Assembly: GCA_016185275.1 (NCBI GenBank)
Contig: JACPNX010000036.1
Coordinates: forward strand, 1 to 64,000
Direction of reading: 5' to 3'
Length of the DNA stretch: 64,000 nucleotides
Source of the DNA: Actinomycetota bacterium
Lineage (GTDB): Bacteria; Actinomycetota; Acidimicrobiia; Acidimicrobiales; Iamiaceae
Shown here: piece after piece, positions 1,025-30,179 of the stretch
Layout of the letters: each line of letters starts with the position of its first letter
Position numbering within the stretch: the first letter of the stretch is position 1
Notes under the pieces: generated by a model
What the model was told of the DNA's origin: nothing
Databases searched by the model: none
Seen by the model: only the letters and a program-made list of their open reading frames with translations
Position numbers and translations under genes: made by a program

Positions 1025-2500
1025 TCACTCCGGGGTCTCATCGATCGGCAACGACGCGGCCAGCTCGGTGAACTGCGCAAGCGCCGCTTCGAGCTCTTCG
1101 ACGATCTCCGCGGCGAGGACGCCAGGCGCCGGCAGTGTGCTGGCGTCGTCGAGGGATTCGTCGCGCAGCCAGGTGATGTCGAGGTTGGCCTTGTCGCGGG
1201 CGACGAGCTCGTCGTAGGCGAAGCGACGGAAGCGTTCGGTCTCGACGCGTTTCGATCGATCCTCCGGCCGGTAGCAGTCGACGAAGTCGGCGAGGTCGGC
1301 GGTCCGCAGCGGGTTCGCCTTCAGCGTGAAGTGCATGTTGGTGCGGAGGTCGTAGACCCAGGTCGCCTTGGTCCACGGATCGGCCGCGGCGGGCTTGCGG
1401 TCGAAGAACACCACGTTGGCCTTGACGCCCTGGGCGTAGAAGATGCCGGTGGGCAGGCGCAGGATCGTGTGCAGGTCGCACTCGGCGAGCAGCCGGCGGC
1501 GGATGGTCTCGCCGGCGCCGGCTTCGAACAGGACGTTGTCCGGCAGGACCACGGCGGCGCGCCCGCCGATCTTGAGCATCCCCTTGATGTGCTGCAGGAA
1601 GTTGAGCTGCTTGTTCGAGGTCGACGCCCAGAAGTCGTCTCGCACGACGACGAGGTCCTCGCGCTCGGCCTCGCCGGCTTCGTTGACCATCGTCATCGAC
1701 GACTTGCGACCGAAGGGCGGGTTGGCGGCGACGAGATCGACACGCACGCCGGAGTCAGCCCGCAGCGCGTCGGCGACCGTGACGAGGCTCCCGCCGTTCG
1801 GCGTGCCGATGCCGTGCAGGAGCAGGTTCATGGCGCACAGGCGCGCGGTGCCGTCGACGATCTCCCAGCCGTGCACGGCCTCGTCGCGCAGGAACCGCTT
1901 GTCGTCGGCGTCCATCTCGGCGATGTGGTGGTCGACGATCCACTCGTGGGCAGCCAGCAGGAACCCGCCGGTGCCGCACGCAGGATCCGCGATCGTCTCC
2001 CCGGGCTTGGGCTGGAGGCAGGCGATCATCGCCCGTGTCAGCGCGCGGGGCGTGAAGTACTGCCCGGCACCCGACTTGGTGTCCTCCGCTCCCTTCTGGA
2101 GAAGCCCTTCGTAGGCGTCTCCCTTGAGGTCGGCGTCGACCGACGTCCAGGTCTCCTCGTTGATCAGGTTGACCACGAGCCGCCGGAGCTTGGCCGGGTC
2201 CTGGATGCGGTTCTGCGCCTTGCGGAAGATCGTGCCGAGGGTGCCGGTCTGCCGGCCGAGCGACTCGAGCAGGTGCCGGTAGTGGACCTCGAGCTCGTCG
2301 CCGTCCCGGTCGAGGAGCGACTGCCAGTCGAGTCCGAGGGGGACGACTTCGCCGAGCCCGGCCTTCTGGCGCTCGTCGGCCATCTTCAGGAAGAGCAGGT
2401 ACGTGAGCTGCTCGACGTACTCGATGGTCGAGACGCCGTCGTCGCGCAGGACGTTGCAGAAGTTCCACAGCTTCTGGACGAGCTGGTTCGAGCTGGTCAT
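1025..2500 (-). CDS. hsdM: Type I restriction-modification methyltransferase subunit HsdM
   Basis: This 491-residue protein is the adenine-N6 methyltransferase subunit of a Type I restriction-modification enzyme. An HsdM_N-type helical domain occupies about residues 5-140. It is followed by SAM-binding motif I, DPACGTGG near residues 172-179, and the catalytic motif NPPFG near residue 260, which are the hallmarks of gamma-class N6-adenine methylases. The length is normal for the family. Its ATG overlaps the stop of the truncated TcmP gene (ATGA), so translation is probably coupled. hsdM usually lies next to hsdS; here it is separated from hsdS by four frames, and it is read after them. Confidence 0.96.
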   Translation of the reverse strand: MTSSNQLVQKLWNFCNVLRDDGVSTIEYVEQLTYLLFLKMADERQKAGLGEVVPLGLDWQSLLDRDGDELEVHYRHLLESLGRQTGTLGTIFRKAQNRIQDPAKLRRLVVNLINEETWTSVDADLKGDAYEGLLQKGAEDTKSGAGQYFTPRALTRAMIACLQPKPGETIADPACGTGGFLLAAHEWIVDHHIAEMDADDKRFLRDEAVHGWEIVDGTARLCAMNLLLHGIGTPNGGSLVTVADALRADSGVRVDLVAANPPFGRKSSMTMVNEAGEAEREDLVVVRDDFWASTSNKQLNFLQHIKGMLKIGGRAAVVLPDNVLFEAGAGETIRRRLLAECDLHTILRLPTGIFYAQGVKANVVFFDRKPAAADPWTKATWVYDLRTNMHFTLKANPLRTADLADFVDCYRPEDRSKRVETERFRRFAYDELVARDKANLDITWLRDESLDDASTLPAPGVLAAEIVEELEAALAQFTELAASLPIDETPE

Positions 2501-2850
2501 GTGTCGTCTCGACAGTCGGCAGAGCCGTATGGCGGCTCCGGAGGATCAGCGCGATAGGAAGGCACGTCGTGAGCGGTCATGTCGCCGGCGGCTTCCGGCT
2601 CCGGGAGGGTCTCGAGCGCCCGTACGGCCGACCCGCGGATGTCACGCGAGACGTCGCGCCGCTCGTTCATTGCGTTGCCGGCGAAGAGGTCGAGGTAGAT
2701 CAGGTCACCCGCAGCCTTCTTGCTGCCGGCGGTGGCGAACGCGCGCAGGTACGCCGACAGGATGTCGAGCTTCGCCTCGGTCCAGAATCCCCAGCCGCGC
2801 GGTGCCACTGCTACTTCACCGGTGTCGAAACGGCCGGCATCGCGTCCCAT
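2497..2850 (-). pseudogene. Truncated TcmP (three-Cys-motif partner) gene
   Basis: The 117-residue frame starts with ATG at 2850, inside the 3' end of the three-Cys-motif gene, and ends in an ATGA overlap with hsdM. Residues about 18-55 (WGFWTEAKLDIL, then YLDLFAGNA) match the N-terminal part of the three-Cys-motif partner family TcmP, whose members are usually about 300-400 residues with a Rossmann-like fold. After a GSAVRAL segment the homology stops and an unrelated tail of about 30 residues follows. I infer a 3' deletion that removed most of the gene and fused it to hsdM. A functional short form is possible because the frame is intact and coupled to both neighbours. Confidence 0.7.
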
Positions 2851-3575
2851 GTCCGACCGTCGAGCTCGCGCCCACCGGCTTTCGGCGTGCGCCCGCCCCA
2901 CTGCTTGAAGAAGAACTTCACCTCGGCGGCGCGTGCCGCGTCGCGCAGCGCACGGACCCAGTCGATGTCCATCGGTCGCGCTCGAGGACCGGATTCGCCG
3001 CCGACGATCAGCCAGTCGATGTCGGTGAGGTCGAGCGCAAGCGGTCCGAGCAGCGGCTCCGCCGACACGAAACGGATGGCTGCCGGAACCTGCCGCAAGT
3101 GGGTGAGCCGGAACGCGTACCGCTGCGTCTCGACGGAGACGCCCATCCACACGTTCGGCGGCCACGGCAGCTCGGGCGCGAGCTGTGCCAGGCGCTTCGC
3201 CCGTTTGGTCAGCACTTGGTACTGGTGCTGGGGGGTCTCGACCATCACGTCGAAGACGTCTCGAATGAACGAGAGCGGGACGCCTTCGTGGAAGAGGTCG
3301 CTCATCGAGTTCACGAACACCGTGCGCGACCCCGACCAGTGGCGCGGCGCGTCGACGACGTCGGGGTGCAACGTCAGCCCGAATCCCGGCCCGCTGGTCC
3401 TCGGGTCGCCGTCGCGCTGGTACTTCGCCTGACCCATCGCCTGCAACCGCTTGGCCAACGTGAGGGCGTAGCAGTTGTCGCATCCGGGCGACGTGCGATC
3501 GCAGCCCGTGGATGGGTTCCAGGTGACCTCGGTCCACTCGATCGCTGACTCGGCCACTGTCATGCCTCCGAACAT
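2811..3575 (-). CDS. Three-Cys-motif protein (DUF5131, phage Gp37/Gp68 family)
   Basis: This 254-residue protein opens with the signature SAIEWTEVTWNPSTGC and carries a CX6CX2C cysteine triad at residues 25, 32 and 35. That pattern defines the DUF5131 or 'phage Gp37/Gp68' family and resembles the metal-cluster-binding triad of radical-SAM-like proteins. The family is regularly encoded beside TcmP in mobile and defence loci, as here. The rest contains the conserved WPPNVWMGVSVE and FVSAEPLLGP segments, so the gene looks full length. A second ATG at 3563 is an alternative start but has GGAGG only one base away. Function in the cell is unknown; a conflict-related nucleic-acid or cofactor enzyme is inferred from context. 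Confidence 0.88.
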   Translation of the reverse strand: MFGGMTVAESAIEWTEVTWNPSTGCDRTSPGCDNCYALTLAKRLQAMGQAKYQRDGDPRTSGPGFGLTLHPDVVDAPRHWSGSRTVFVNSMSDLFHEGVPLSFIRDVFDVMVETPQHQYQVLTKRAKRLAQLAPELPWPPNVWMGVSVETQRYAFRLTHLRQVPAAIRFVSAEPLLGPLALDLTDIDWLIVGGESGPRARPMDIDWVRALRDAARAAEVKFFFKQWGGRTPKAGGRELDGRTWDAMPAVSTPVK

Positions 3576-3618
3576 ACGGAGGGGGCGTGACAGCCATGGG
3601 GGCCGAGCGAGGACGCCA

Positions 3619-4782
3619 TCACACCAGCCCGAGCCGGTCGGCGAGCCCGTCGAAGGTCGACGCGCGCTGCACGTCGAGCAATCGGAAGGCCCGCGTGTAC
3701 GGGGTGCGGCCCTCCTTCGCGCTCGCGATCAGCGCGCTCGCGAACCGGCGACTCACCTGGACGGGCTTGGTGTTGTAGTAGCTCCCTCCACCGCCGCTGC
3801 GGGCCGCGAGGAACTCCGCGACACGCTCGCGTTCCACGTCCAGCTCGACGAGGTACTGCTCCCACGTCAGCGCGCCGGCCTCGCGCAGGCGACCGAGAAC
3901 CACCCGGGGGCTGACGCGGAAGTGCTCGGCAATTGGGTGCAGCTGGGCCCGCAAGTCCCCGCTCGGATCGAGTCGGTTGCGGAACTCGCCCATCGGCACC
4001 AGGAGCTCAGCGGCGACCTGGTTGCACCACCGCTCGACGTCGTTGGCCCGGACGGAACGCGGATCGAGGTCGGACAGCGCCGTCTCACCCAGCCAGAGGT
4101 GGGCGAGCTCGTGCACGAGCGTGAACACCTGCGCCGACTTGGCGTCCGCGCCGTTGACGAACACGAGAGCGGCGTACGGGTCGGCGAGCGCGAAGCCTCG
4201 GAACTCATGGGGATCGAGGGTGCGATGCGTGTTGGAAGCGACGATGCCGCTGATCATCACGAGGACGCCGGCTGCTTCCGCGCGCTCACGGAGCCACGCC
4301 AGCGCGCCGTCGGACCCGCGGCACGCCGCACGGTTCTGCGCCGTCCAGTCGAGCACCACCCGCATCTGGGCGGCGACATCATCAACGGCATGGTTCGTGC
4401 TGGCCGCCCCGACGAAGGCCAGCGGAGGTTCGCCTTCGAGGATCTGGTTGTCCCGGTACCACTCCTGCCGCCGCTCGCAGGCGTAGATCACGTCCAGAAG
4501 GTCGGCGGAGACAACCTCGTCGGCGCCGACGGGACGGTCGCCGACGGTACGGAGGTCGGGGATCGGCACCGTTTCGACGGGTGGCTCCTCCAGGAAGAGG
4601 AACCCGACCGGTGTGTGCGTCTTCCGGGCGAAATCCTCGAGCTGCTTCAGCGTCGGTGCGGCCTCGCCCGCCAGCCACGCCTCGAACTTCGGGAACCGCC
4701 GGTCCCAATCGTCCTCAGTGATGCCGGAGCGCGCCCGAGCCCACGCCAAGACGTTCGGCCGAACCTCGACCCGCACACTCAC
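3619..4782 (-). CDS. ImmA/IrrE-type metallopeptidase with N-terminal HTH
   Basis: The 387-residue protein begins with an Xre-like region (residues about 8-65, with the PTLKQLEDFARKTHTPVGFLFL segment typical of the family). It then carries a zinc peptidase domain with HELAH at residues 224-228. ImmA/IrrE peptidases cleave repressors or antitoxin-like regulators; copies encoded within Type I RM operons are common. The start is GTG, overlapping the stop of a 24-codon upstream frame (GTGA). Its substrate is not visible from the sequence; the fused HTH suggests that it senses or controls transcription itself. Confidence 0.9.
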   Translation of the reverse strand: MSVRVEVRPNVLAWARARSGITEDDWDRRFPKFEAWLAGEAAPTLKQLEDFARKTHTPVGFLFLEEPPVETVPIPDLRTVGDRPVGADEVVSADLLDVIYACERRQEWYRDNQILEGEPPLAFVGAASTNHAVDDVAAQMRVVLDWTAQNRAACRGSDGALAWLRERAEAAGVLVMISGIVASNTHRTLDPHEFRGFALADPYAALVFVNGADAKSAQVFTLVHELAHLWLGETALSDLDPRSVRANDVERWCNQVAAELLVPMGEFRNRLDPSGDLRAQLHPIAEHFRVSPRVVLGRLREAGALTWEQYLVELDVERERVAEFLAARSGGGGSYYNTKPVQVSRRFASALIASAKEGRTPYTRAFRLLDVQRASTFDGLADRLGLV

Positions 4783-4853
4783 GGCCGCACACCTCCTCGA
4801 ACACCTCGTGCAGCACCGATCGACCGTACTTTGGGAGTGTGACGGTCACTCAT
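4779..4853 (-). CDS. 24-aa ORF bridging hsdS and the ImmA gene
   Basis: A 24-codon frame starts with an ATG that overlaps the hsdS stop (ATGA) and ends in a TGA that overlaps the GTG start of the peptidase gene (GTGA). The product is Arg/Gly-rich with no recognisable domain. The exact fit on both sides suggests a translational-coupling relay, carrying ribosomes from hsdS to the peptidase gene. Chance overlap cannot be excluded for so short a frame. Confidence 0.4.
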   Translation of the reverse strand: MSDRHTPKVRSIGAARGVRGGVRP

Positions 4854-6268
4854 GCCTTCGCTCCCGCCCGGCGGGGCTTGGCCTTCGGGGCCGCGGCTCG
4901 CTCGTCTCGGATCCGCTCCAGCAGAACCGATGCCGGCTCGTCGGTCGGGTCCTGCGGCACGAGCCGTCCTTCGAACGCCGACTTCAAGATCGACCGGCGC
5001 AGGGCCGCCGATCGCACCAAGGCGGCATCGACGGCGCGACCGCAGGCGTCGATGAACGACATGTGCCGCTCGACCTCGGCAACGATCCGTGCCTGCTCCT
5101 CCAAAGGTGGTAGCGCAACCGGGAGCGGAATCAGGGTGCGAAGTGAGAGGTTGTATTGACCCGCCGACGAGGCGGCTGCACTTTCCAGCTCGCCGCGCCA
5201 CCACGGCGCGGTGAGCAGCATCGAGAGGAACCGTGCGTCAACCGCGTTGACAAGCGTCCGGAACCGGATGAGGTACGACGCGAACGAACACCCGACCTCG
5301 CTCGTGACTGGCGCGCATCTCCCAATGAGGTCACGACTCCCGTTCGTTCGCACGATCAACAAGTCACCCGGCTTCAGGAGCAGTTCGGCGTCAATCGGCG
5401 CGCCGGATGGTGCTCGCTTCAGATCGCCGAGATCGAGCGCACCTCGTTGGACGTTCGGGATCCGTAGCACTCCAATGCCGGTCTCCTCGTAGCCGCACTT
5501 GACGCTCGTTCCGTAGCCAGCGCCGCGAGCCAGCGACCCGAGAGCACACCAGGCCCAAGTGCGCGGCACGGAGGGCCCGAGGGGCGGATTGATCGACTGG
5601 GCGCCGAGGTCGGCCAAAACATTCGTGGCGGGAGTGTCAGTCAGGTCTTGGGGGACGAGGCGGCCGGAGACGGCGGCGGCGAGGACGGCGTCTCGCATGC
5701 GCTTGAGGAGTTGGCGGACGGTGCGAAGTCCGGCTTCGCCGGCGTCGAGCTTGGAGAACGCTTCCTCGATCGCGACGACGATTTGCCCTTGCTCGGCCGT
5801 CGGAGCGACGCACAACCGAACGTCGTCGGCTAGTCGCGAACTCGCGATGCTCGCCTGGTTCACGTGATTCGAAATCAGGTGACTCAGTCCACCCGAGGCC
5901 CACAGATGATGCAGCTGACGCGCGACAAAAGATGGGACCATGCCGTCAGCGAGCCGAACTCGCGTCATGTGATTCGAAAACGCCACGAGCTCGTGACTGA
6001 GATATGGCGCCGATTTGCCCACCAGTGCAGGACTGTTCGTGTTGTTAAACAACACATCGCCGAAGGTCAGTCGCCTGTCGCCCGCGTCGGCTGCGACGTA
6101 CTTCAGCTTGGCCATGTCGATCTCGCCGTTTCGATTGACGTTCATCGGGCGCAGGTGGGGAACCCCGACGCCATCCGCGTTATGGATCCCGCTGGCGAAG
6201 CCCGAGCTCACATCCACGGCGACATCTGAAACGTAGGCCTTTGCCCAGCCCTGAGGCAGCTCGCTCAT
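4850..6268 (-). CDS. hsdS: Type I restriction-modification specificity subunit HsdS
   Basis: This 472-residue protein provides DNA sequence recognition for the HsdR/HsdM enzyme. It has the usual internal duplication: target recognition domain 1 (about residues 1-150), a conserved helix ending in AAAVSGRLVPQDLTDTPA, target recognition domain 2 (about 235-400), and a second helix ending in AFEGRLVPQDPTDEPA. Both half-repeats are complete, so a bipartite target site is expected. Its ATG overlaps the hsdR stop (ATGA). The basic Lys/Ala/Arg tail is variable in this family. Base composition inside the recognition domains is slightly lower in GC than in neighbouring genes, as is common for exchanged specificity domains. 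Confidence 0.95.
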   Translation of the reverse strand: MSELPQGWAKAYVSDVAVDVSSGFASGIHNADGVGVPHLRPMNVNRNGEIDMAKLKYVAADAGDRRLTFGDVLFNNTNSPALVGKSAPYLSHELVAFSNHMTRVRLADGMVPSFVARQLHHLWASGGLSHLISNHVNQASIASSRLADDVRLCVAPTAEQGQIVVAIEEAFSKLDAGEAGLRTVRQLLKRMRDAVLAAAVSGRLVPQDLTDTPATNVLADLGAQSINPPLGPSVPRTWAWCALGSLARGAGYGTSVKCGYEETGIGVLRIPNVQRGALDLGDLKRAPSGAPIDAELLLKPGDLLIVRTNGSRDLIGRCAPVTSEVGCSFASYLIRFRTLVNAVDARFLSMLLTAPWWRGELESAAASSAGQYNLSLRTLIPLPVALPPLEEQARIVAEVERHMSFIDACGRAVDAALVRSAALRRSILKSAFEGRLVPQDPTDEPASVLLERIRDERAAAPKAKPRRAGAKA

Positions 6269-9066
6269 GCGACGAGCTCTTCGGCGAGCTCAGCGAGGAT
6301 CGACGCGAGTCGTCCGTCGAAGTCCTTGTTGGCGCGCCCGAAGCCACCGTGGCCGACGAAGGGCTCGAGCTCGAAGTCGTCGGGCGCGATGCTCAAGCTC
6401 GTCGCCAGGTGGTCCTTGATCCTCGTGAGCCACGCGAGCTGGTCGTCGGTGAAGACCGTTCCGGCCTGCTTCTGCTGGGCAAGCCAGCTCTGGAACCGCT
6501 CCTCGACCGTGAGCGGATAGGCGACGAGCTCGTCGCCGGGGTCGAGTGCCTTGCGGACGAGCGAGATCAGGTTCGTGAACTGCTTGCCCGCGGAGCCCCG
6601 CACCCGCGCCGCCTCGAGCGCTTCGTAGGCGGACCACAGGCGCTCGGGCGTCCAGTTGTACGGCGGCCGGCCGATGGTGGCCGCCAGCTCCTTGATCGCC
6701 TTGAGTGTGAGCCGCTTGCCGTAGGGCCGTGAGTAGAGGATCTGGAGGGCGTCGATGTCGTCGTGGTGCTCGGCGACGAACGCCTGCCACGACTCGATCG
6801 TCTGTCGTGCTCTATCCGTAGCGTCGAGAGAGAAGCCGGCGTCGATGACGGCGTCCTTCGAGGTCTCGTCGAGCACCTGCATGTAGCTGCGGCGCACGTC
6901 GAGGAGCTTGCTGCGCAGCGCCGGGCGTTCGGCGAGGATCCGAGACGCCTGCTCGACGAGCTCGGCCCGTGCGGTGTCGACTTGCTCTTCGGTCGGGTCG
7001 GCGCCGCCGTTCGCCTCGGCGGCGCGCTCCCAGGCCTTGTCGATGTCGACGGCGTTGGTCAGCACCCGGACGATGTCGGTGAGGTCGACGCCGTCGGCGG
7101 CTTCGGCCAGCTCGGCCCGGTCCTCGCTCGAGATGGCGCGGTCGAGGCGGGCGAGCCGGCCGGCGATGGACGACACGACATCCGCGTCGCGCACGCCCGC
7201 CGCTACCTGGTCGAGCAGCTTCTTGAGCGAGTCGGCCTTGCGCCGGTCGAGCGGGTTCGTGTCGTTGAACTCGCCTTCGGTGACACCGACGGCGTCGACG
7301 ATGACGAAGTGCGTCTTGGCGGTGGCATCGGCCGAGACCGCCTGCAGGTCGTTGGGGTCGATGACCCGCACACCGCGGCCCTTCATCTGCTCGAAGAAGT
7401 TCCGCGATCGCACCTGGCGCATGAACATCACGCACTCGAGCGGGCGCACGTCGGTGCCGGTGGCGATCATGTCCACGGTGACGGCGATGCGCGGGTTGAA
7501 GCTGTTGCGGAACTGGTTGAGCAGGTCCTCGGGCTTCACCCCGGTCGTCCGATACGTGATCTTGACGGCGAAGTCGTTGCCGCGCCCGAACTCCTCACGG
7601 CAGATGCGCACGATGTCGTCGGCGTGGCTGTCGTCCTTGGCGAAGATGAGCGTCTTCGGGACCTCGCTCCGGCTCGGGAAGATCCCGCCCTCGTCGAGCG
7701 GCTCGAACAGGTTGTCGCGGAAGGTGCGGATGATGGTGCGGATCTGGTCGAGCGAGACCACGTCGCGGTCGAGCTGGCGGGCGTCGTAGACGACGTCCTC
7801 GTCGAGCTTCTCGAGCCGGACCCTGCGCGTCTCGCGTTCTCGGAACTTGGTGACGAGTCCCGCTTCGACGGTCGAACCCTGCTCGCTGATCTTGGTGCGG
7901 ATCCGGTAGACGTCGAAGTCGACGTTGACCCCGTCGGCGACGGCCTCGGCATGGCCGTACTCGACGACGAGGTTCTGGTTGAAGAACCCGAACGTCTGCT
8001 TGGCCGGGGTGGCGGTCAGCCCGACCAGGAACGCATCGAAGTACTCGATGACCTGCCGCCACACGCCGTAGATCGACCGGTGACACTCGTCGACGATCAC
8101 GACGTCGAACGCCTCGATCGGGATCGCCGGGTTGTACGTGACCTCGACGGGCCGGTCCGGTTCGATCTCCGAGCCGGACTTCTCGTCCACGTCCTCTGCC
8201 AGCTCCTCCTCGCCGCGCAGCATCGAGTAGAGGCGCTGCACGGTCGTGATGACGACGCGCGCGGCGGGGTCGATGCGGTTCGAGGTGAGCAGCTGCACGT
8301 TGTAGAGGTCGGTGAACTTGCGACCATCGCCGGGTGTGGCGAACTGCTGGAACTCGTGCAGGGTCTGTCGACCGAGGTTCGCCCGGTCGACGAGGAACAG
8401 GACGCGCTCGGCGCCGGCCGTGAGCACCAGCCGGTAGGCGAGGTTCGCGGCCATGAACGTCTTGCCGGAGCCGGTGGCCATCTGGGCGAGCGCGCGCGGG
8501 TGGTTGTGGACCATCGACGTCTCGACGCGCTTGATGGCCTCGACCTGGATGCGGCGCAGACCCTCGGGACCAACCGGTCCGAGGCGCTGCAAACGGGCTC
8601 GCAGCGATCCACCATCGGCGTCGTCGACCCAGTGCCGCATCCACCGGGCCAGCGTCTCCGGTCGATGGAAGGCGACGACCGGCCGCGACCTCGGGTCGGG
8701 GTCGAAGCCGTCGGTGAACATCGTCTCGTCGCCGGTCGACTCGTAGAGGAACGGCAGCGGCTTCACGAGCGCGCCGAGGTTCGATGGGAGGCCGGCGGCG
8801 TACTTCGCCGACTGCGGCTCGACCCCGGCGAGCGGAGTCCCCGAGGGCTTGGCTTCGACGGCGCCGGCCGCTTTGCCGTCGACGAACAGCAGGTAGTCGG
8901 CCCGCCCGTGACCGCTCGCCATGATGAACTCCCGCACGGCCACGCCCTGGCCGGCGTACAGGTTCATCTGGTCCCGGCTCTGGACGTGCCACCCGCACGC
9001 GACGAGCTGGCGGTCGATCTCGACCCGGGCGCGAGCCTCCGCCGCCAGGTAGGCGCTGTCCGTCAT
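6265..9066 (-). CDS. hsdR: Type I restriction endonuclease subunit HsdR
   Basis: The 933-residue subunit cuts unmodified DNA and drives translocation. An N-terminal PD-(D/E)xK nuclease region is seen as RADYLLFVDGKAAGAVEAK. It is followed by an SF2 helicase with Walker A MATGSGKTF, Walker B VIVDECHRS, motif III LTATP and a helicase C domain, then a coiled-coil-rich C-terminus. I chose ATG 9066 (MTDSAYLAAEARARVEIDRQ) because homologues start here and the upstream codons read like non-coding sequence. That ATG overlaps the stop of an 11-codon leaderless frame. It is the first main gene of the RM operon. Confidence 0.96.
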   Translation of the reverse strand: MTDSAYLAAEARARVEIDRQLVACGWHVQSRDQMNLYAGQGVAVREFIMASGHGRADYLLFVDGKAAGAVEAKPSGTPLAGVEPQSAKYAAGLPSNLGALVKPLPFLYESTGDETMFTDGFDPDPRSRPVVAFHRPETLARWMRHWVDDADGGSLRARLQRLGPVGPEGLRRIQVEAIKRVETSMVHNHPRALAQMATGSGKTFMAANLAYRLVLTAGAERVLFLVDRANLGRQTLHEFQQFATPGDGRKFTDLYNVQLLTSNRIDPAARVVITTVQRLYSMLRGEEELAEDVDEKSGSEIEPDRPVEVTYNPAIPIEAFDVVIVDECHRSIYGVWRQVIEYFDAFLVGLTATPAKQTFGFFNQNLVVEYGHAEAVADGVNVDFDVYRIRTKISEQGSTVEAGLVTKFRERETRRVRLEKLDEDVVYDARQLDRDVVSLDQIRTIIRTFRDNLFEPLDEGGIFPSRSEVPKTLIFAKDDSHADDIVRICREEFGRGNDFAVKITYRTTGVKPEDLLNQFRNSFNPRIAVTVDMIATGTDVRPLECVMFMRQVRSRNFFEQMKGRGVRVIDPNDLQAVSADATAKTHFVIVDAVGVTEGEFNDTNPLDRRKADSLKKLLDQVAAGVRDADVVSSIAGRLARLDRAISSEDRAELAEAADGVDLTDIVRVLTNAVDIDKAWERAAEANGGADPTEEQVDTARAELVEQASRILAERPALRSKLLDVRRSYMQVLDETSKDAVIDAGFSLDATDRARQTIESWQAFVAEHHDDIDALQILYSRPYGKRLTLKAIKELAATIGRPPYNWTPERLWSAYEALEAARVRGSAGKQFTNLISLVRKALDPGDELVAYPLTVEERFQSWLAQQKQAGTVFTDDQLAWLTRIKDHLATSLSIAPDDFELEPFVGHGGFGRANKDFDGRLASILAELAEELVA

Positions 9067-9110
9067 GCGCTCGAGGCCTCGAGGGCAGCCGCCGCCATGC
9101 ATCCAAAGTA
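9063..9110 (-). promoter_or_regulatory. hsdR promoter with leaderless 11-aa upstream ORF
   Basis: Reading on the minus strand, a TACTTT hexamer (9110-9105) is followed after 6 nt by ATG at 9098. This opens the frame MAAAALEASSA, whose TGA overlaps the hsdR ATG (ATGA). The spacing from the hexamer to the ATG matches other leaderless starts in this window. I infer that the RM message begins at or near 9098 and that the small frame loads ribosomes onto hsdR. No convincing -35 box is visible. Confidence 0.45.
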
Positions 9111-9325
9111 CGTGGTGGGGGTGTTCGGGTGCTTCTCGCGCGATCGACCAGTTCGGGAGCGCGCCCTCGACTTGGTGGTCGACGACGCGTGCGGGCGGAC
9201 TTCGAGTTGACCGGGCGCCTCCCCGGCTGCCAGTCCCGTCCCGACCTGACGAGGCCGTCGCGCCCTGGCGTGTGGGGGCGGGCTCGCTCACTTGCGGCGC
9301 TCCGACCTTTTGCGTCGCCGGCTAA

Positions 9326-21616: not shown

Positions 21617-22819
21617 GTGCCCCACGACCGCATCGCCCGGCGCGTCGCCGCCATCGCCCCGTCCGCCACGCGGGCCGTCGACGCCAAGGCCAAGGCCCTC
21701 CAGGCGGCGGGGGAGCCGGTGATCGGCTTCGGCGCCGGCGAGCCCGACTTCCCCACTCCCGACCACATCGTCGCCGCCGCCGCCGAGGCGTGCCGCGACC
21801 CCCGCAACCACCGGTACACGCCGGCCGCAGGGCTGCCCGAGCTGCGGACCGCGATCGTGGCCAAGACGGCCCGCGACAGCGGGATCGAGGTGGATCCCGG
21901 CCAGGTGCTGGTGACCAACGGCGGCAAGCACGCCGTCTACAACGCGCTGTTGACGATCGTCGACGAGGGCGACGAGGTGCTGCTGCCCGCGCCGTACTGG
22001 ACGACGTACCCCGAGCCGATCCGCCTCGCCGGAGGCGTCCCGGTGGAGCTGCCCACCGACGAGCTCACCGGCTTCCGGGTCACGGTCGACCAGCTCGAGG
22101 CGGCGCGCACGGAGCGGACCAAGGCGCTCGTCTTCGTGTCGCCGTCGAACCCGACCGGGTCCGTCTACCCCCGCGACGAGATCGAGGCCATCGGCCGCTG
22201 GGCCCACGAGCACGGCATCTGGGTGCTGACCGACGAGATCTACGAGCACCTCGTGTACCGGGGGCACGAGTTCCACTCGATGCCCGCGGTGGTGCCCGAG
22301 CTGGCCGACCGCTGCATCATCCTCAACGGCGTGGCCAAGACCTACGCCATGACGGGCTGGCGGGTCGGGTGGATGATCGGTCCGGCCGACGCGGTCAAGG
22401 CGGCCACCAACCTGCAGAGCCACTCGACCAGCAACGTGGCCAACGTGTCGCAGCGCGCCGCCATCGCCGCACTCGGGGGCGGGCTCGACGACGTGGCCCG
22501 CATGCGCGACGCCTTCGCCCGCCGGGCCGAGGTGATGCACAAGATGCTGTCGGGCATCGACGGCGTCACCTGCCTCGAACCCGAGGGCGCGTTCTACGCC
22601 TTCCCGTCGTTCAAGGCGGTGGTCGAGCGCGGCTCGGTGGCGGGCCGGCCGGTGCGGTCCACGATCGAGCTGGCCGAGGTGATCCTCGAAGAGGCGAAGG
22701 TGGCGGTCGTGCCCGGCGAGGCCTTCGCCGCGCCCGGCTACTTCCGCATGTCGTTCGCCCTCGGCGACGACGATCTCGGCGAGGGCGTGCAGCGCATCGC
22801 CGACCTGCTCGCCCGCTGA
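21617..22819 (+). CDS. Aspartate-type pyridoxal-phosphate aminotransferase
   Basis: The 400-residue class I aminotransferase has the substrate-binding region [11 protein letters not shown], the [11 protein letters not shown] block, the Asp/Tyr pair in [11 protein letters not shown] and the PLP lysine in [16 protein letters not shown]. These match aspartate aminotransferases of subgroup I-gamma (AspB/AspC-like). GTG 21617 with CAGGAG upstream is preferred; the longer frame from 21479 overlaps the shared promoter element. It follows the lipoprotein gene and has its own upstream element. Substrate specificity within the subgroup cannot be read with certainty. Confidence 0.92.
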
Positions 22820-22866
22820 GCCGGCCCCGTCCCCGAGCGCAGCCCGGCACAGGCGATACTGGCGCC

Positions 22867-24165
22867 ATGCCTGTGCCGGGCCTCACCGAGATCCGCCTCG
22901 GCGCCTTCAAGAGCCACCGCGATCAGACGCTCCAACTGGAGCCGATGACCCTGCTCGTCGGGCGCAACGGCAGTGGCAAGTCGAACGCGCTCGACGCGCT
23001 GTCGCTGCTGGCCTTGCTGGCCGACGATCGCGACGTCAACGACCTCGAGCGTGGCGACTCGGAAGTGGCCGGCCTACGTGGTGGTCTGAGCGGTGCGGCA
23101 CCCTTCGGTGGAAAGGAGGTCGCCGTCGGTTGCACCATCACGGCCGACGGCGGCGAGCAGCTCCGGTTCGACGTCACGTTCGATGCGTCCGTGCATCCGG
23201 AGATCACGTCCGAGCGCCTCGTGCTCCTGCGACCGCAGAAGAAGGACCAGACGCTCATCGAGTCGAACCAGCGGGCTCCCGGATCGGGCATCGCGGACGT
23301 GCAGGTGTACTCGGGAGGGGCGCCGCGGACGTATCAGTTCCTCTCGTCGCGGCTGGCCGTAGCTCAGGCGGTCACGCGCTTGCCCGCGGACACCATGGCG
23401 CGGCAGCTCGTGATCGAGCGCTGCGAGGCACTCGTAGGGGTGCTGCGCGGAGTGTTCGTGCTCGACCCCGTGCCCGCGCAGATGCGCGAGTACGTCCGCA
23501 TCGGCTCGCCGCCCGACCGGTCGGGGTCCTCCACCTCGGCGGTGGTCTACCGCCTTCGAGAGAACGCCTCCACCTGGGACCGGCTGGTGAAACTGGTCCG
23601 CGGTCTGGTCGAGGCGGAGGTCGTGGACGTCACCTTCTCGGAGGCCAAGCTGCCCGACGATCGCCTCATCGACGTGATGGTCGCCCTCGAGGAACAGGCC
23701 GGCTCGGGCAGGTTCACCGCTCCGGCGCGGCTGATGAGCGACGGGACGCTGCGCTACCTGGCCATCGTCGCATCGCTTCTCGATCTGCCGAGCGATGGGG
23801 GCGGCGATTGGCTCTCGGCTGGCCGCACGTTGGTCGTCGAGGAGATCGAGAACGGCCTGTTCCCGTCGCAGAGCGAGCGGGTCCTCAAGCTCCTGCGGAC
23901 CGAAGCGAAGGAGCGGAACGTCAGGCTCATCGCCACGACTCACAGCCCGGCCCTGCTCGACGCGCTCACACCGGAGGACCACCGGGGTGTCATCGTCTGC
24001 GCGCGGGGTCCCGACGGCTTCAGCCGTCTCGGCCGCCTGACCGACCACCCGAGCTACGTCGAGATCGCCGGCGCGGGTGAGATCGGTCGCTCGGTGGCGC
24101 GTGGGTTACTCGCGCAGCCGGCCAAGCCGCCGCCAGCCAGCGTGGCCGACCTGTTCGCCTCGTGA
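22867..24165 (+). CDS. AAA/ABC-type ATPase (OLD/AAA_21-like), partner of a PIN-like protein
   Basis: The 432-residue ATPase has Walker A GRNGSGKSN (residues about 31-39), a DALSLLALL segment, and a C-terminal half with LMSDGTLRYLAIVASLL (signature-like), Walker B TLVVEEIENGLFPSQ and the H-switch IATTHSPALLD. This is the AAA_15/AAA_21 ABC-type fold found in OLD-like and other anti-phage ATPases. The OLD Toprim nuclease domain is absent; instead the next gene, overlapping by 4 bp, encodes a PIN-like protein. The ATG lies 6 nt after GATACT, so the transcript is probably leaderless. The role is inferred as the sensor/motor of a two-gene conflict module. Confidence 0.85.
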   Translation: MPVPGLTEIRLGAFKSHRDQTLQLEPMTLLVGRNGSGKSNALDALSLLALLADDRDVNDLERGDSEVAGLRGGLSGAAPFGGKEVAVGCTITADGGEQLRFDVTFDASVHPEITSERLVLLRPQKKDQTLIESNQRAPGSGIADVQVYSGGAPRTYQFLSSRLAVAQAVTRLPADTMARQLVIERCEALVGVLRGVFVLDPVPAQMREYVRIGSPPDRSGSSTSAVVYRLRENASTWDRLVKLVRGLVEAEVVDVTFSEAKLPDDRLIDVMVALEEQAGSGRFTAPARLMSDGTLRYLAIVASLLDLPSDGGGDWLSAGRTLVVEEIENGLFPSQSERVLKLLRTEAKERNVRLIATTHSPALLDALTPEDHRGVIVCARGPDGFSRLGRLTDHPSYVEIAGAGEIGRSVARGLLAQPAKPPPASVADLFAS

Positions 24166-24662
24166 GGCGTCGCGTCGAACTCATCGACACCTCGGTTCTC
24201 CTCGAGTTGCTCGACGTGCCCTTCTGCAACGACCGCCGTGACGAAGTGATCGCCGAGTTCGAGGATCGGATCCGCCGAGGCATCAACTTTCAGATGCCCG
24301 CTGCAGCACTGGTCGAAGCGGGTGGCCACGTGAGCCGCATCAGCGATGGCTCGGCCCGGCGCCGTTGCGCAACCCATCTCGCCGAGTTGATCGGGGCCAC
24401 GGTCGCTGGCAAGGCGCCGTGGACGTTCACCCGGCTCTCCTGGGACGATGACTTCCTCGACCGCCTCCTCGCGCCTTCGGACGATCTGCCGTTGGCGTTG
24501 GTCGAATCGTTGGCGCAGCGGCACCTCGAGATGGGCGACCTCGTGATCGTGGCCGAATGGCAGCGCCTTCGAGAGAACCTGGACCCACAAGTTGTGGAGA
24601 TCGACGTGTGGACGCTCGACAACTCGTTGAGCGCCGTCATCAAACACCTCAGGCAGCCGTGA
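24162..24662 (+). CDS. PIN-like protein coupled to the ATPase
   Basis: The 166-residue protein begins RRRVELIDTSVLLELLDVPF, a typical PIN first strand with the catalytic Asp in the IDTS motif. An acidic residue in the middle (QMPAAALVEAGGH) and MGDLVIVAEWQRL toward the C-terminus could supply the other metal ligands. The GTG start overlaps the ATPase stop by 4 bases. PIN proteins are RNases in VapC toxins; the pairing with an OLD-like ATPase instead of an antitoxin is unusual. The C-terminal DVWTLDNSLSAV is consistent with a PIN-like final strand. Function is inferred as the effector nuclease. Confidence 0.75.
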   Translation: MRRRVELIDTSVLLELLDVPFCNDRRDEVIAEFEDRIRRGINFQMPAAALVEAGGHVSRISDGSARRRCATHLAELIGATVAGKAPWTFTRLSWDDDFLDRLLAPSDDLPLALVESLAQRHLEMGDLVIVAEWQRLRENLDPQVVEIDVWTLDNSLSAVIKHLRQP

Positions 24663-24747
24663 TGCCGGGTCAGCCGGGTCAGCCCGGCCCACCGACCGCC
24701 AGCGCGCCGGAGAAGGCCACGCGCAATGCGGTGAGAGGGGCGACGCA

Positions 24748-25002
24748 TCACCGACGTTGGTCGACCGGCCGACCCTCGTCCAGCAACTCGGCCAAGCCGC
24801 GATTCGAGTCGAGGTCCACGCCGGGGCGAGCACCACGGCCACCGCGAAACACGGGGAAGTCAGGCGCGGGATCCGTCGACGGCTGCGCCAGCTCTCGACG
24901 CAGCGATTCCTCGATGAGCTGGCCGAGCGTCATCCTGCGCCGCTGCGCCTGGCTCCGCGCCTCGGCCAAGAGATGGTCGTCGATCGACACGGTGGTGCGC
25001 AT
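24748..25002 (-). CDS. Orphan ribbon-helix-helix antitoxin (VapB-like)
   Basis: The 84-residue protein starts MRTTVSIDDHLLAEARSQAQ followed by LGQLIEESLRREL, a ribbon-helix-helix DNA-binding domain as in VapB antitoxins. The remaining 35 residues would bind a toxin. No VapC frame follows on the minus strand; the next 80 bp encode only an Arg-rich stretch and then the convergent PIN-like gene is reached. The antitoxin therefore appears orphaned. A palindromic operator lies directly upstream. Confidence 0.8.
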   Translation of the reverse strand: MRTTVSIDDHLLAEARSQAQRRRMTLGQLIEESLRRELAQPSTDPAPDFPVFRGGRGARPGVDLDSNRGLAELLDEGRPVDQRR

Positions 25003-25012
25003 GGTGCACAGG

Positions 25013-25035
25013 ATGACGCGTCATGCGCATGACGC
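25013..25035. promoter_or_regulatory. Nested palindromes upstream of the orphan vapB (operator)
   Basis: GCGTCATGCGCATGACGC (25018-25035) is an 18-bp perfect palindrome and ATGACGCGTCAT (25013-25024) is an overlapping 12-bp palindrome. Together they give three alternating CATGACG/CGTCATG half-sites spaced for cooperative binding of RHH dimers. The element is 11 bp upstream of the vapB start. Confidence 0.6.
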
Positions 25036-25078
25036 CTCGGTGGTGTGTATCACCGCTTGCCCGACGAGGACGGCGCAA

Positions 25079-25189
25079 TGACACCCGAAGCCGGTCCCGG
25101 TCGACTCGAAGGCCTGCTGGTCCTGATGTTGTGGACGGCCCTCTTCGGGGCGCTATCGGCGTGGCGGTTCTCGGCCGGCGACGCCTGAT
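25079..25189 (+). CDS. 36-aa single-membrane-helix ORF
   Basis: The short frame MTPEAGPGRLEGLLVLMLWT continues into LFGALSAWRFSAGDA. It forms one hydrophobic helix followed by Trp-Arg-Phe, resembling the last helix of ABC-2-type permeases. It may be the 3' remnant of such a gene or a genuine small membrane protein. No clear Shine-Dalgarno sequence is present. Confidence 0.3.
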
Positions 25190-25225
25190 CCGCTCGCCGA
25201 CTGAAGCGGCGAGCAGACTGCTCGC

Positions 25226-27343
25226 GTGACCGCGGCATCGGAACGCCCCACCCTCCGGTACGGCACGTGGCCGTCGCCGATCACGGCGGCGAGCCTCGTG
25301 GAAGGGGCGACGCGCGTCGGCGAGGTGCGGGTCGACGGCGAGGACGTCTGGTGGAGCGAAGGCCGGCCATCGGAAGGTGGGCGCAACCAGCTCGTGCGCC
25401 GCGACGCCAGCGGCGACGTCGCCGACGCGCTGCCGGCCGCGGGTGGCGTGGACGGCACTCCCTGGAACGCCCGCACGCAGGTCCACGAATACGGCGGGGC
25501 GGCATGGTGCGTGCGCGACGGCGTCGTGTGGTTCTCGCACTGGGCCGATCAGCGCATCTGGCGGTTGGACGCGGGTGCCGCCGAACCGGTGCCGGTCACC
25601 CCTGCGCCCTCGCGGCCCCGGGGGCTGCGCTACGCCGACGCCGAGGTGTCGCCGGACGGACGCTGGCTCGTGGCCGTGCGGGAGTCGCACGACGGCGACG
25701 GTGAAACGGCCGAGAGTGGGGTCGTCGCGGGCGAGGCCCGCAACGAGATCGTGGCCGTTCCCGCCGACGGTTCGGCCGCCGACGAACCCGCGGCCGTGCG
25801 CGTGCTGGTGAGCGGGCCCGACTTCGTCGCCGCACCGACCGTCAGCGCCGACGGCAACCGGCTGGCCTGGATCGCCTGGGACCACCCCGCCATGCCGTGG
25901 GATGCCACGCAGCTCCGCGTCGCCGCCTTCGACCCGCTGGGCGGGCCGGTGGGAGGCACGGTCGTGGCCGGCAGCTCAAGCGGTCCAAGCGGTCCCGGCG
26001 GCCCGAGCGGTCCCGGCGACCCGAGCGGCTCGGACGGCCCCGGGGGTCGGGGCGAGTCGGTGATCGGCCCGCGCTGGTCGGCCGACGGGTCGCTGCTGTT
26101 CTCCTCCGACCGGACGGGCTGGTGGAACCCGTACCGGGCGCGGGCCGCCGGCGACGAGTGGGTGGTCGAACAGGTGGTGCCCGACGGCATCGTCGGCGAG
26201 GTCGGTGGGCCCGCCTGGGTGTTCGGTGGCCGCTGGCTGGCCGAGCTGGCGGACGGGCGGATCGTCGCCTCCTGCAGCCGGGGCGGATCGACGGGGCTGG
26301 TACTCATTGAGCGCCACGGCGTGGAGCGCCCGCTCGACCTGGCGTTCACCGAGGTGTCACAGGTGGTCACGGCCCCGGGCGGCGAGGCGGTCGTGGTCGT
26401 CGCCGGCACCCCCACCGACGAGCCCGCGGTGTGGCTGGTCGATCCCGACCACCACTCGCCCCGCCGGCTCAGCGCCGAGGCGCCTGCCGTGGTCGGCGAG
26501 GAGTGGATCAGCCGCCCCGAGCCGATCACGTTCCCCACCGGCGACGGCGGCGCCACGGCCCACGCCCTCCTCTACCGGCCGACCAACCCCGGGATCGACG
26601 CTCCGGCCGGTGAGAAGCCCCCGCTGCTGGTGATGATCCACGGCGGTCCTACCTCGGCGGCCCGGCCCTCGCTGTCGCTGGCCAAGCAGTTCTGGACGAG
26701 CCGCGGCTTCGCCGTGGTCGACGTCGACTACCGCGGCTCCACCGGCTACGGCCGCCCGTACCGGGACGCGCTGCGGGGCCAGTGGGGCGTGGCCGACGTC
26801 GAGGACTGCATGGCCGCCGCCCGCTACCTCGCCGCCGAAGGCATCGTCGATCCGGCGCGCCTGGCCATCCGCGGAGGTTCGGCCGGCGGCTACACGACCC
26901 TGGCCGCGCTGGCCTTCGGTGACGTGTTCGCCGCCGGCGCCAGCCACTACGGCGTGGCCGACCTCGGCGCGCTGGCTCGCGAGACCCACAAGTTCGAGAG
27001 CCGCTACCTCGACGGGCTCGTCGGGCCGTGGCCCGAGGCGGCCGCCGTGTACGAGGCTCGCAGCCCCATCTCGCACACGGACGGCTTCGACCGGCCCCTC
27101 ATCGTGTTCCAGGGGCTCGAGGACGAGGTGGTGCCGCCCAACCAGGCCGAGGCCATCGTCGCCGCGCTGGCGGCCAAGGGCGTGCCCCATGCCTACGTGC
27201 CCTTCGCGGGCGAGCAGCACGGGTTCCGCCAGGCCGCCAACATCGTGCGAGCCCTCGAGGCCGAGCTGTGGTTCTACGGCCGGGTCTTCGGCTTCGACCC
27301 CGCCGGCCACATCGAGCCGGTCGCGGGCGCGGTTGGCCTCTGA
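25226..27343 (+). CDS. S9 family peptidase (prolyl oligopeptidase family)
   Basis: The 705-residue serine peptidase has an N-terminal beta-propeller (residues about 10-415) and a C-terminal alpha/beta-hydrolase domain. The catalytic serine lies in RGGSAGGY (about residue 552), Asp in QGLEDEVVPP (about 632) and His in GEQHGF (about 665). DYRGSTGYGRPYRDALRG is the typical oxyanion-side motif of acylaminoacyl/dipeptidyl peptidases. A Gly/Ser/Pro-rich in-frame insertion (residues about 250-272) sits in the propeller. No signal peptide is visible, so it should act in the cytoplasm. Confidence 0.93.
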   Translation: MTAASERPTLRYGTWPSPITAASLVEGATRVGEVRVDGEDVWWSEGRPSEGGRNQLVRRDASGDVADALPAAGGVDGTPWNARTQVHEYGGAAWCVRDGVVWFSHWADQRIWRLDAGAAEPVPVTPAPSRPRGLRYADAEVSPDGRWLVAVRESHDGDGETAESGVVAGEARNEIVAVPADGSAADEPAAVRVLVSGPDFVAAPTVSADGNRLAWIAWDHPAMPWDATQLRVAAFDPLGGPVGGTVVAGSSSGPSGPGGPSGPGDPSGSDGPGGRGESVIGPRWSADGSLLFSSDRTGWWNPYRARAAGDEWVVEQVVPDGIVGEVGGPAWVFGGRWLAELADGRIVASCSRGGSTGLVLIERHGVERPLDLAFTEVSQVVTAPGGEAVVVVAGTPTDEPAVWLVDPDHHSPRRLSAEAPAVVGEEWISRPEPITFPTGDGGATAHALLYRPTNPGIDAPAGEKPPLLVMIHGGPTSAARPSLSLAKQFWTSRGFAVVDVDYRGSTGYGRPYRDALRGQWGVADVEDCMAAARYLAAEGIVDPARLAIRGGSAGGYTTLAALAFGDVFAAGASHYGVADLGALARETHKFESRYLDGLVGPWPEAAAVYEARSPISHTDGFDRPLIVFQGLEDEVVPPNQAEAIVAALAAKGVPHAYVPFAGEQHGFRQAANIVRALEAELWFYGRVFGFDPAGHIEPVAGAVGL

Positions 27344-29825: not shown

Positions 29826-30179
29826 GTGCACCCGGCGATCAAGCGAGCCCTGATCTACCTCGGGCTCGGCCCCGACGAACCGACCGCGCCGGGCTCGCGC
29901 GAGCATCTCGACGTCGGCGCTGGGCCACCTGCGACGCGGCCGACGGCGTGGCAGCGAGTGATGATCTACCTCGGGCTCGGCCCCGACGAACCGACCGCGC
30001 CGGGCTCGCGCGAGCATCTCGACGTCGGCGCGGGGCCACCTGCGACGCGGCCGACGGCGTGGCAGCGAGTGATGATCTACCTCGGGCTCGGCCCCGACGA
30101 ACCGACGGCGCCGGAGGGCGGGCGTGCCGCCCGGCGGAGCTGGCCGGCTGCGACACACCGCGACGACGAGGGCGACTGA
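29826..30179 (+). CDS. Tandem-repeat protein with SepF-like motif
   Basis: The 117-residue protein consists of a 37-residue unit in nearly three identical copies. Each starts with the segment [IV]M/LIYLGLGPDEPTAP and is followed by GSREHLDVGAGPPATRPTAWQR. The amphipathic stretch before YLGLGPDE resembles the N-terminal membrane-targeting motif of SepF, the FtsZ-binding division protein, but no SepF beta-domain is present. GTG 29826 is 6 nt after CAGAAT. The frame continues through all copies, which supports translation. Function unknown; a membrane-associated peptide is possible. Confidence 0.55.
   Translation: MHPAIKRALIYLGLGPDEPTAPGSREHLDVGAGPPATRPTAWQRVMIYLGLGPDEPTAPGSREHLDVGAGPPATRPTAWQRVMIYLGLGPDEPTAPEGGRAARRSWPAATHRDDEGD
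29851..30115 (+). repeat. 111-bp tandem repeat, about 2.4 copies
   Basis: The sequence TGATCTACCTCGGGCTCGGC recurs at 29851, 29962 and 30073, an exact 111-bp period. Copies 1 and 2 are nearly identical across the whole unit; copy 3 diverges after about 45 bp. The period is a multiple of three, so the frame is kept. Confidence 0.85.

Follow-up and report, generated by a model that had tools for sequence, protein, structure and literature searches.

The two overlapping genes at positions 22,867 to 24,662 of the window, by which we mean the whole 64,000-nucleotide stretch of Actinomycetota DNA that was analysed, form a mobile unit that shows signs of transfer between bacteria. They probably constitute a candidate defence system of the PDC-M07 kind, in which an ABC ATPase would restrain a suicidal RNase in the manner of AriA and AriB in PARIS. 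We regard the pair as candidate defence genes because of its PADLOC profile matches, its co-inheritance, its placement beside hsd and Hma genes, its patchy distribution and an empty site in relatives. The genes are:

22867..24165, + strand: gene A (PDC-M07A), 432 aa, an ABC ATPase of the OLD/Rad50/PtuA type, Toprim absent
24162..24662, + strand: gene B (PDC-M07B), 166 aa, a putative endoRNase with a predicted PIN fold, GTG start

Gene A reads from an ATG at 22867 to a stop at 24163–24165 and is followed by gene B, which reads from a GTG at 24162 to a stop ending at 24662. The two share four bases, GTGA, such that B starts inside the stop of A. These coordinates agree with the ORF positions and the 4-bp overlap given in a first-pass annotation of the sequence, whose observation of an ATPase/PIN-like pair is confirmed; the stretch with which it had the second protein begin, IDTSVLLELLD, corresponds to residues 8–18 of B.

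The Walker A motif of the A protein reads GRNGSGKS, and the Pfam match of the protein is AAA_21 (5.8e-29). It also matches the PADLOC-DB profile PDC-M07A over residues 1–422 (3e-133), and its match to the AriA profile is far weaker (3e-30). In the predicted model of A (pLDDT 87.5), ABC-head folds span residues 1–414, so that there is no space left to house Toprim. The AAA_21 match and the ABC-head model over these residues uphold the initial description of A as an OLD-like ABC ATPase that lacks a Toprim nuclease domain. Among the 50 structural matches listed, Smc, Rad50 and PtuA heads align to the model with Z scores of 18.6–21.9. By sequence profile, the best PDB chain is PtuA (8ee4, 1e-11), and an OLD-family protein scores 8.3e-11.

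The B protein matches the PDC-M07B profile over residues 2–164 (3.9e-52) and, in the PADLOC-DB scan, matches PDC-M07B profiles only. By predicted fold it is a PIN protein, as had been proposed, and the non-nuclease fold that was allowed for at the outset did not emerge. An AlphaFold2 model of B built from 11 alignment rows has a mean pLDDT of 91.1, and its best solved-structure match in a second structural aligner is VapC20 (Z 12.9, rmsd 2.5 over 127 residues), the entry title of which names a sarcin-ricin-loop cleaving toxin; the rows listed after it are mostly VapC, FitB and other PIN-domain entries. Foldseek against the PDB also gave VapC, FitB and other PIN-domain proteins in its first rows (probability 0.87–1.00 for the first five), with no match at E up to 0.001 (best 0.021). 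What supports the PIN assignment is the consistency of the VapC rows together with the result of the second aligner. The profile check proposed in the first-pass annotation was borne out in part: Pfam PIN matches 20 of 24 rows of B relatives at E up to 0.1, weakly (best 2.1e-4), whereas B itself matches no Pfam family above cut-off and has no Pfam PIN match, and PDB sequence profile searches with B yielded chance-level matches only and no PIN chain. These searches argue against a simple assignment from sequence; the PIN identity of B is carried by its predicted fold, together with these 20 weak PIN matches. PIN domains are defined by a conserved acidic site of three to four residues. In the 24-row B alignment, in which the L015 and L064 rows derive from one sequence, D9, E52 and D126 are the same in every row; at position 153, 19 rows have D and five have E. 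From the PIN fold, we infer that these four positions form the metal site of B.

The structural data bear on a Septu-like reading, in which A and B would form a stable assembly that strikes invading nucleic acid directly, with no suicide, and a PIN protein would take the place of the HNH protein PtuB. PtuA is the closest PDB chain to A, and PtuA heads are among its top folds. However, because the scores of Rad50 and SMC heads equal those of PtuA, the fold of A does not single out Septu, and it is VapC toxins, VapC20 included, that B most resembles in fold. Moreover, the partner in Septu and retron PtuAB systems is the HNH protein PtuB, while B has a predicted PIN fold and matches PDC-M07B only. 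We consider a Septu-like assembly unlikely. PARIS resembles the pair in having two genes, for an ATPase and a nuclease, and in the AriA profile match of A, but its effector is a Toprim protein and A is far closer to PDC-M07A. Membership in PARIS, or in a Toprim system generally, was rejected, as the partner of A has a PIN fold and matches PDC-M07B only.

The first-pass annotation did not recognise the arrangement as a named one. It does have a name: PADLOC-DB (2023) already lists both proteins, as PDC-M07A and PDC-M07B, in a candidate defence system. The window pair is a member of that family, with both profiles matched near full length, the same gene order and the same embedding in defence loci; no difference was found, the PADLOC-DB scan carrying no description of either protein. 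A PIN partner for such an ATPase has also appeared in print. A 2026 paper describes, near BREX systems, pairs of OLD-ABC ATPases with PIN endoRNases that it takes for a probable backup layer of effectors; the set of 594 taxa includes HNH and PD-(D/E)XK partners as well (PMC12839542). Those pairs comprise the same two protein types as A and B and are likened to them here by description; their context is BREX, and none of the 20 neighbours that we scanned with PADLOC was so named. The term uncharacterised, used in the first-pass annotation, seems right, as the literature searched contained no experimental test of an ATPase/PIN pair and no paper mentioning PDC-M07. According to PMC12988326, PDC candidates stem from a guilt-by-embedding search and most are without experimental validation. 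As the family is already listed as a candidate, the novelty is modest; the biology is real. The present analysis adds a PIN fold predicted for PDC-M07B and a proposed mechanism, along with an empty site in relatives, signs of transfer and a linkage to restriction operons that gives a concrete test.

The A and B genes are inherited together. Across 397 genomes of the same order, B has a patchy distribution and occurs in 17, A (E up to 1e-40) occurs in 15, and both occur in 14 compared to 0.64 expected (Fisher p 4.6e-22, ignoring shared ancestry); at the same threshold A is present in none of 14 named control genomes. Of the 18 order genomes that hold either gene, 15 have the two next to each other on a single contig, namely 13 with both scored, G002, in which both are frame-broken, and G471, in which A is cut by the contig start. 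In G631, A and B lie at the ends of two contigs, in G616 B is cut by the contig end, and in G391 an A fragment is followed by a degenerate B. A phylum-wide sample revealed B in 3 of 296 genomes, one copy (G228) being broken. The search of genome contigs gave 13 loci: A adjoins B in 11, two of them broken (L008 and L017), and two Tessaracoccus contigs start at or near B. A Tessaracoccus locus (L011:1178-8473, - strand) has type III CRISPR genes, named as such by PADLOC, beside the PIN gene, including an 870-aa ORF that matches Csm3/Cas7 profiles. The distances of A and of B among 22 chosen pairs correlate with an r of 0.89, which none of 5000 permutations reached. The pair thus recurs, and the concern that it might be found only once did not materialize. 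A fused A-B gene in L027 was considered and rejected, as the ATPase part loses its frame before the B start.

On plasmids, B matches 10 of 72,556 records, and an ATPase gene lies directly upstream of it in all nine of those 10 that were fetched. The hosts are Photobacterium, Vibrio, Acinetobacter, Anabaena, Dolichospermum, another Aphanizomenonaceae cyanobacterium, Segatella and Lactococcus; the plasmid copies lie in four phyla besides that of the window, giving the family a spread of at least five phyla. The four plasmid pairs scanned, among them the distant ones from Segatella and Lactococcus, match PDC-M07A and PDC-M07B. Viral contigs gave one locus. In L029, the pair lies on an IMG/VR contig labelled viral, about 2.7 kb from a PDC-S06 candidate. 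Two B queries had no match in phage records, and a DNA search of E. coli genomes with the Photobacterium pair found no match.

The surroundings of the pair in the window point to its mobility. The features concerned are:

21626..22819, + strand: left flank, a class I/II aminotransferase, housekeeping (Pfam Aminotran_1_2, 1.5e-76; gene start approximate)
22820..25225, no strand: inserted segment of 2.4 kb with the pair and an orphan antitoxin, missing from the same place in relatives
24748..25002, - strand: orphan VapB-type RHH antitoxin, convergent neighbour of B (Pfam VapB_antitoxin, 8.8e-4, below cut-off)
25226..27343, + strand: right flank, an S9 peptidase, housekeeping (Pfam Peptidase_S9, 2e-52)

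The aminotransferase and S9 peptidase genes occur together, without A, B or the RHH gene, in 11 of 12 relatives fetched, the locus of the twelfth being cut at its contig start. Two of these 11 loci have another ORF, of about 182 aa, in a gap of some 600 bp that separates the two genes. The nearest A protein (64% identical) is from an assembly labelled Sandaracinaceae (Myxococcota), a label that could be wrong because the assembly is a metagenome bin; the next is from Actinomyces (50%). Among the rows compared, the A proteins of same-order pairs are at most 43% identical to that of the window, a comparison that does not include G002 from the same family, where the pieces of a frame-broken A are 55–69% identical to the window protein, so that part of the lineage may be shared within the family. 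The window, Sandaracinaceae and Actinomyces sequences form one clade in the A tree (support 100/100), and the window groups with Actinomyces in the B tree (100/98), which leaves out the broken Sandaracinaceae B. The patchy presence, the empty site in relatives and the nearest kin outside the order fit mobile defence genes.

PIN toxins commonly pair with RHH antitoxins. The RHH gene lies only 85 bases from B, and on these grounds B could be the toxin of a VapBC pair to which the ATPase is incidental. B does have a predicted VapC fold. However, the toxin of VapBC is partnered by a small DNA-binding antitoxin from a co-directional gene beside it, whereas the partner of B is an ABC ATPase and the RHH gene is convergent with B, with which it forms no operon. 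Among the 122 loci compared, nothing beyond the sequence of the window itself matches the RHH antitoxin convincingly (the best other match has E 0.027), while A and B co-occur strongly. In addition, relatives of the antitoxin own a different VapC: in four of five homologous loci inspected (L124–L127), a VapC-like gene lies directly downstream on the same strand, one of the four having been scanned and matching Pfam PIN at 1.5e-13. In the window no VapC-like gene follows the antitoxin in this way, and the convergent gene B occupies the place where these relatives carry theirs. The antitoxin, aptly called an orphan in the first-pass annotation, is, judging from these comparisons, not part of the A-B module. 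A VapBC pair of B and the RHH protein was rejected on the convergent orientation, the lack of a convincing RHH match in the other loci compared and the different VapC of its relatives, and is extremely improbable.

The first-pass annotation had suggested looking for recurrence beside defence genes, and this is seen in restriction operons, beside HmaB and in other PADLOC matches. On two Vibrionaceae plasmids, Photobacterium pAQU1 and Vibrio pIFL1_3, the gene order is hsdM-hsdS-A-B-hsdR, in L065 it is hsdM-hsdS-hsdR-A-B, and in L071 and L073 the pair is near hsdM. In L074 (790-1692, + strand), an HsdR-like ORF ends about 40 bp before a broken ATPase gene, resembling the hsdR-A-B order of L065. 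The hsd genes were matched in 6 of 39 pair loci, which are partly redundant, and in 0 of 12 control loci, with queries whose choice is biased as they come from L020, L065, L071 and L073, themselves pair loci, and with controls shorter than many pair loci; some of the 33 pair loci without a match are short contigs. The independent linkage events are fewer, given that L020 is almost a copy of L024 and that one genus accounts for both L071 and L073. HmaB is near the pair in L062 (PADLOC, 1.4e-218). Of 20 neighbours picked by eye, 17 matched PADLOC profiles and three did not. The matches include AbiLi-like (L007), ThsA-like (L009) and OLD/GajA-like (L019) neighbours, a weak match to the TIR of the SAVED-TIR type (L010, 1.5e-8), PDC-S06 (L029) and type II methyltransferases beside the pair in L072 and L073. 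In L071, a gene for a pAgo-like protein (L071:2551-4512, - strand, 7.5e-17) separates the pair from an hsdS gene.

The orphan VapB is the only defence gene directly next to the pair in the window, whose type I restriction locus lies 13.6 kb away. This locus comprises:

1025-9291, - strand: type I restriction locus with extra genes inside
1025-2500, - strand: HsdM (N6_Mtase, HsdM_N)
2811-3575, - strand: DUF5131 protein (1.9e-97)
3619-4782, - strand: IrrE-type peptidase protein (Peptidase_M78, 7.8e-13)
4850-6268, - strand: HsdS-like ORF, no Pfam match, resembles the L071 HsdS at 3.7e-34
6265-9291, - strand: HsdR (ResIII, EcoEI_R_C)

A 284-aa ORF just beyond HsdM (134-988, - strand) has no Pfam match at 0.001.

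The hsd linkage recalls PrrC of EcoprrI, one protein with an HEPN-type anticodon nuclease. Like the pair, PrrC links an ABC ATPase to an RNase, and like the pair in some loci it sits inside a type I restriction operon; PrrC is, however, a single polypeptide of the HEPN type, whereas A and B are two proteins with a PIN fold predicted for the second, and the window pair lies outside the operon. PrrC has its place within a type IC locus, and inhibition of restriction sets it off (PMC12707154; see also PMC2610378 for this precedent). Together, the linkage and PrrC suggest a restriction-guard role for the pair, which is one option among several. As a split, two-protein counterpart of PrrC, the pair would guard type I restriction: A would monitor or dock on the enzyme and set off the PIN RNase once a phage inhibitor has put restriction out of action. 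The loci with hsd genes, including those in which the pair sits between hsdS and hsdR, directly after hsdMSR or after an HsdR-like ORF, argue for this, as do their absence from the controls and the presence of a type I locus in the window. Against it stand the 33 pair loci with no hsd match, the origin of the queries, the reduced number of independent events, the distance of the restriction locus from the window pair, and the lack of any restriction gene in the annotation of the stretches that surround the pair on plasmids of the cyanobacteria, Acinetobacter, Segatella and Lactococcus. We hold this guard function to be a tentative possibility. It is a special case of our preferred explanation with a defined trigger, and the confidence placed in the two overlaps.

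The plasmid copies, and the finding that ATPases of the broad type of A neutralise several unrelated nuclease toxins, both RNase-like and Toprim, in tests (PMC10440598), are also consistent with a plain toxin-antitoxin addiction module, in which B would be the toxin and A the antitoxin, serving the stability of plasmids or islands with no antiviral role. For one ATPase-neutralised pair with an RNase-like toxin, the same source reports no phage protection in E. coli, which counts against the defence reading that we prefer. But the window family is placed, in some loci, within or next to restriction operons, and once near an Hma gene, and an ABC ATPase head would be a costly antitoxin unless it senses something. 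An addiction module is thus unlikely.

In the explanation that we prefer, that of an ATPase-restrained suicidal RNase, A would, as an oligomer, keep B inactive. On sensing infection, through either a phage product or the inhibition of restriction, A would free or activate B, which would cut a structured RNA that serves translation, either tRNA or rRNA, and growth and phage production would stop. In PARIS, AriA forms a hexamer that sequesters AriB, and released AriB cuts tRNA-Lys (PMC11455837). A more specific and rather doubtful proposal is that PDC-M07 as a whole is a split PrrC, in which the ATPase would read the state of type I restriction complexes, acting in cis where the pair sits in an hsd operon and otherwise in trans, and unleash a VapC20-like PIN RNase on tRNA or on the large-subunit rRNA loop upon anti-restriction. 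If that is true, PIN joins the HEPN (PrrC), Toprim (PARIS) and HNH (Septu) effectors on one ATPase scaffold, and toxins of the VapC type would be tied to restriction guards. Should A restrain a PIN toxin and fire it upon a restriction block, such toxins would take their place with Toprim and HEPN nucleases as effectors of one shared sensor, which would provide a simple, testable rule for the construction of two-gene systems. The copies on the small plasmids of Acinetobacter (NZ_CP039153.1) and Lactococcus lactis (pUC06D) lend themselves to testing.

Elsewhere in the window, a small ORF (29826-30179, + strand) has a unit of about 37 residues (YLGLGPDEPTAPGSREHLDVGAGPP...) in two copies that are nearly identical, with the beginning of a third.
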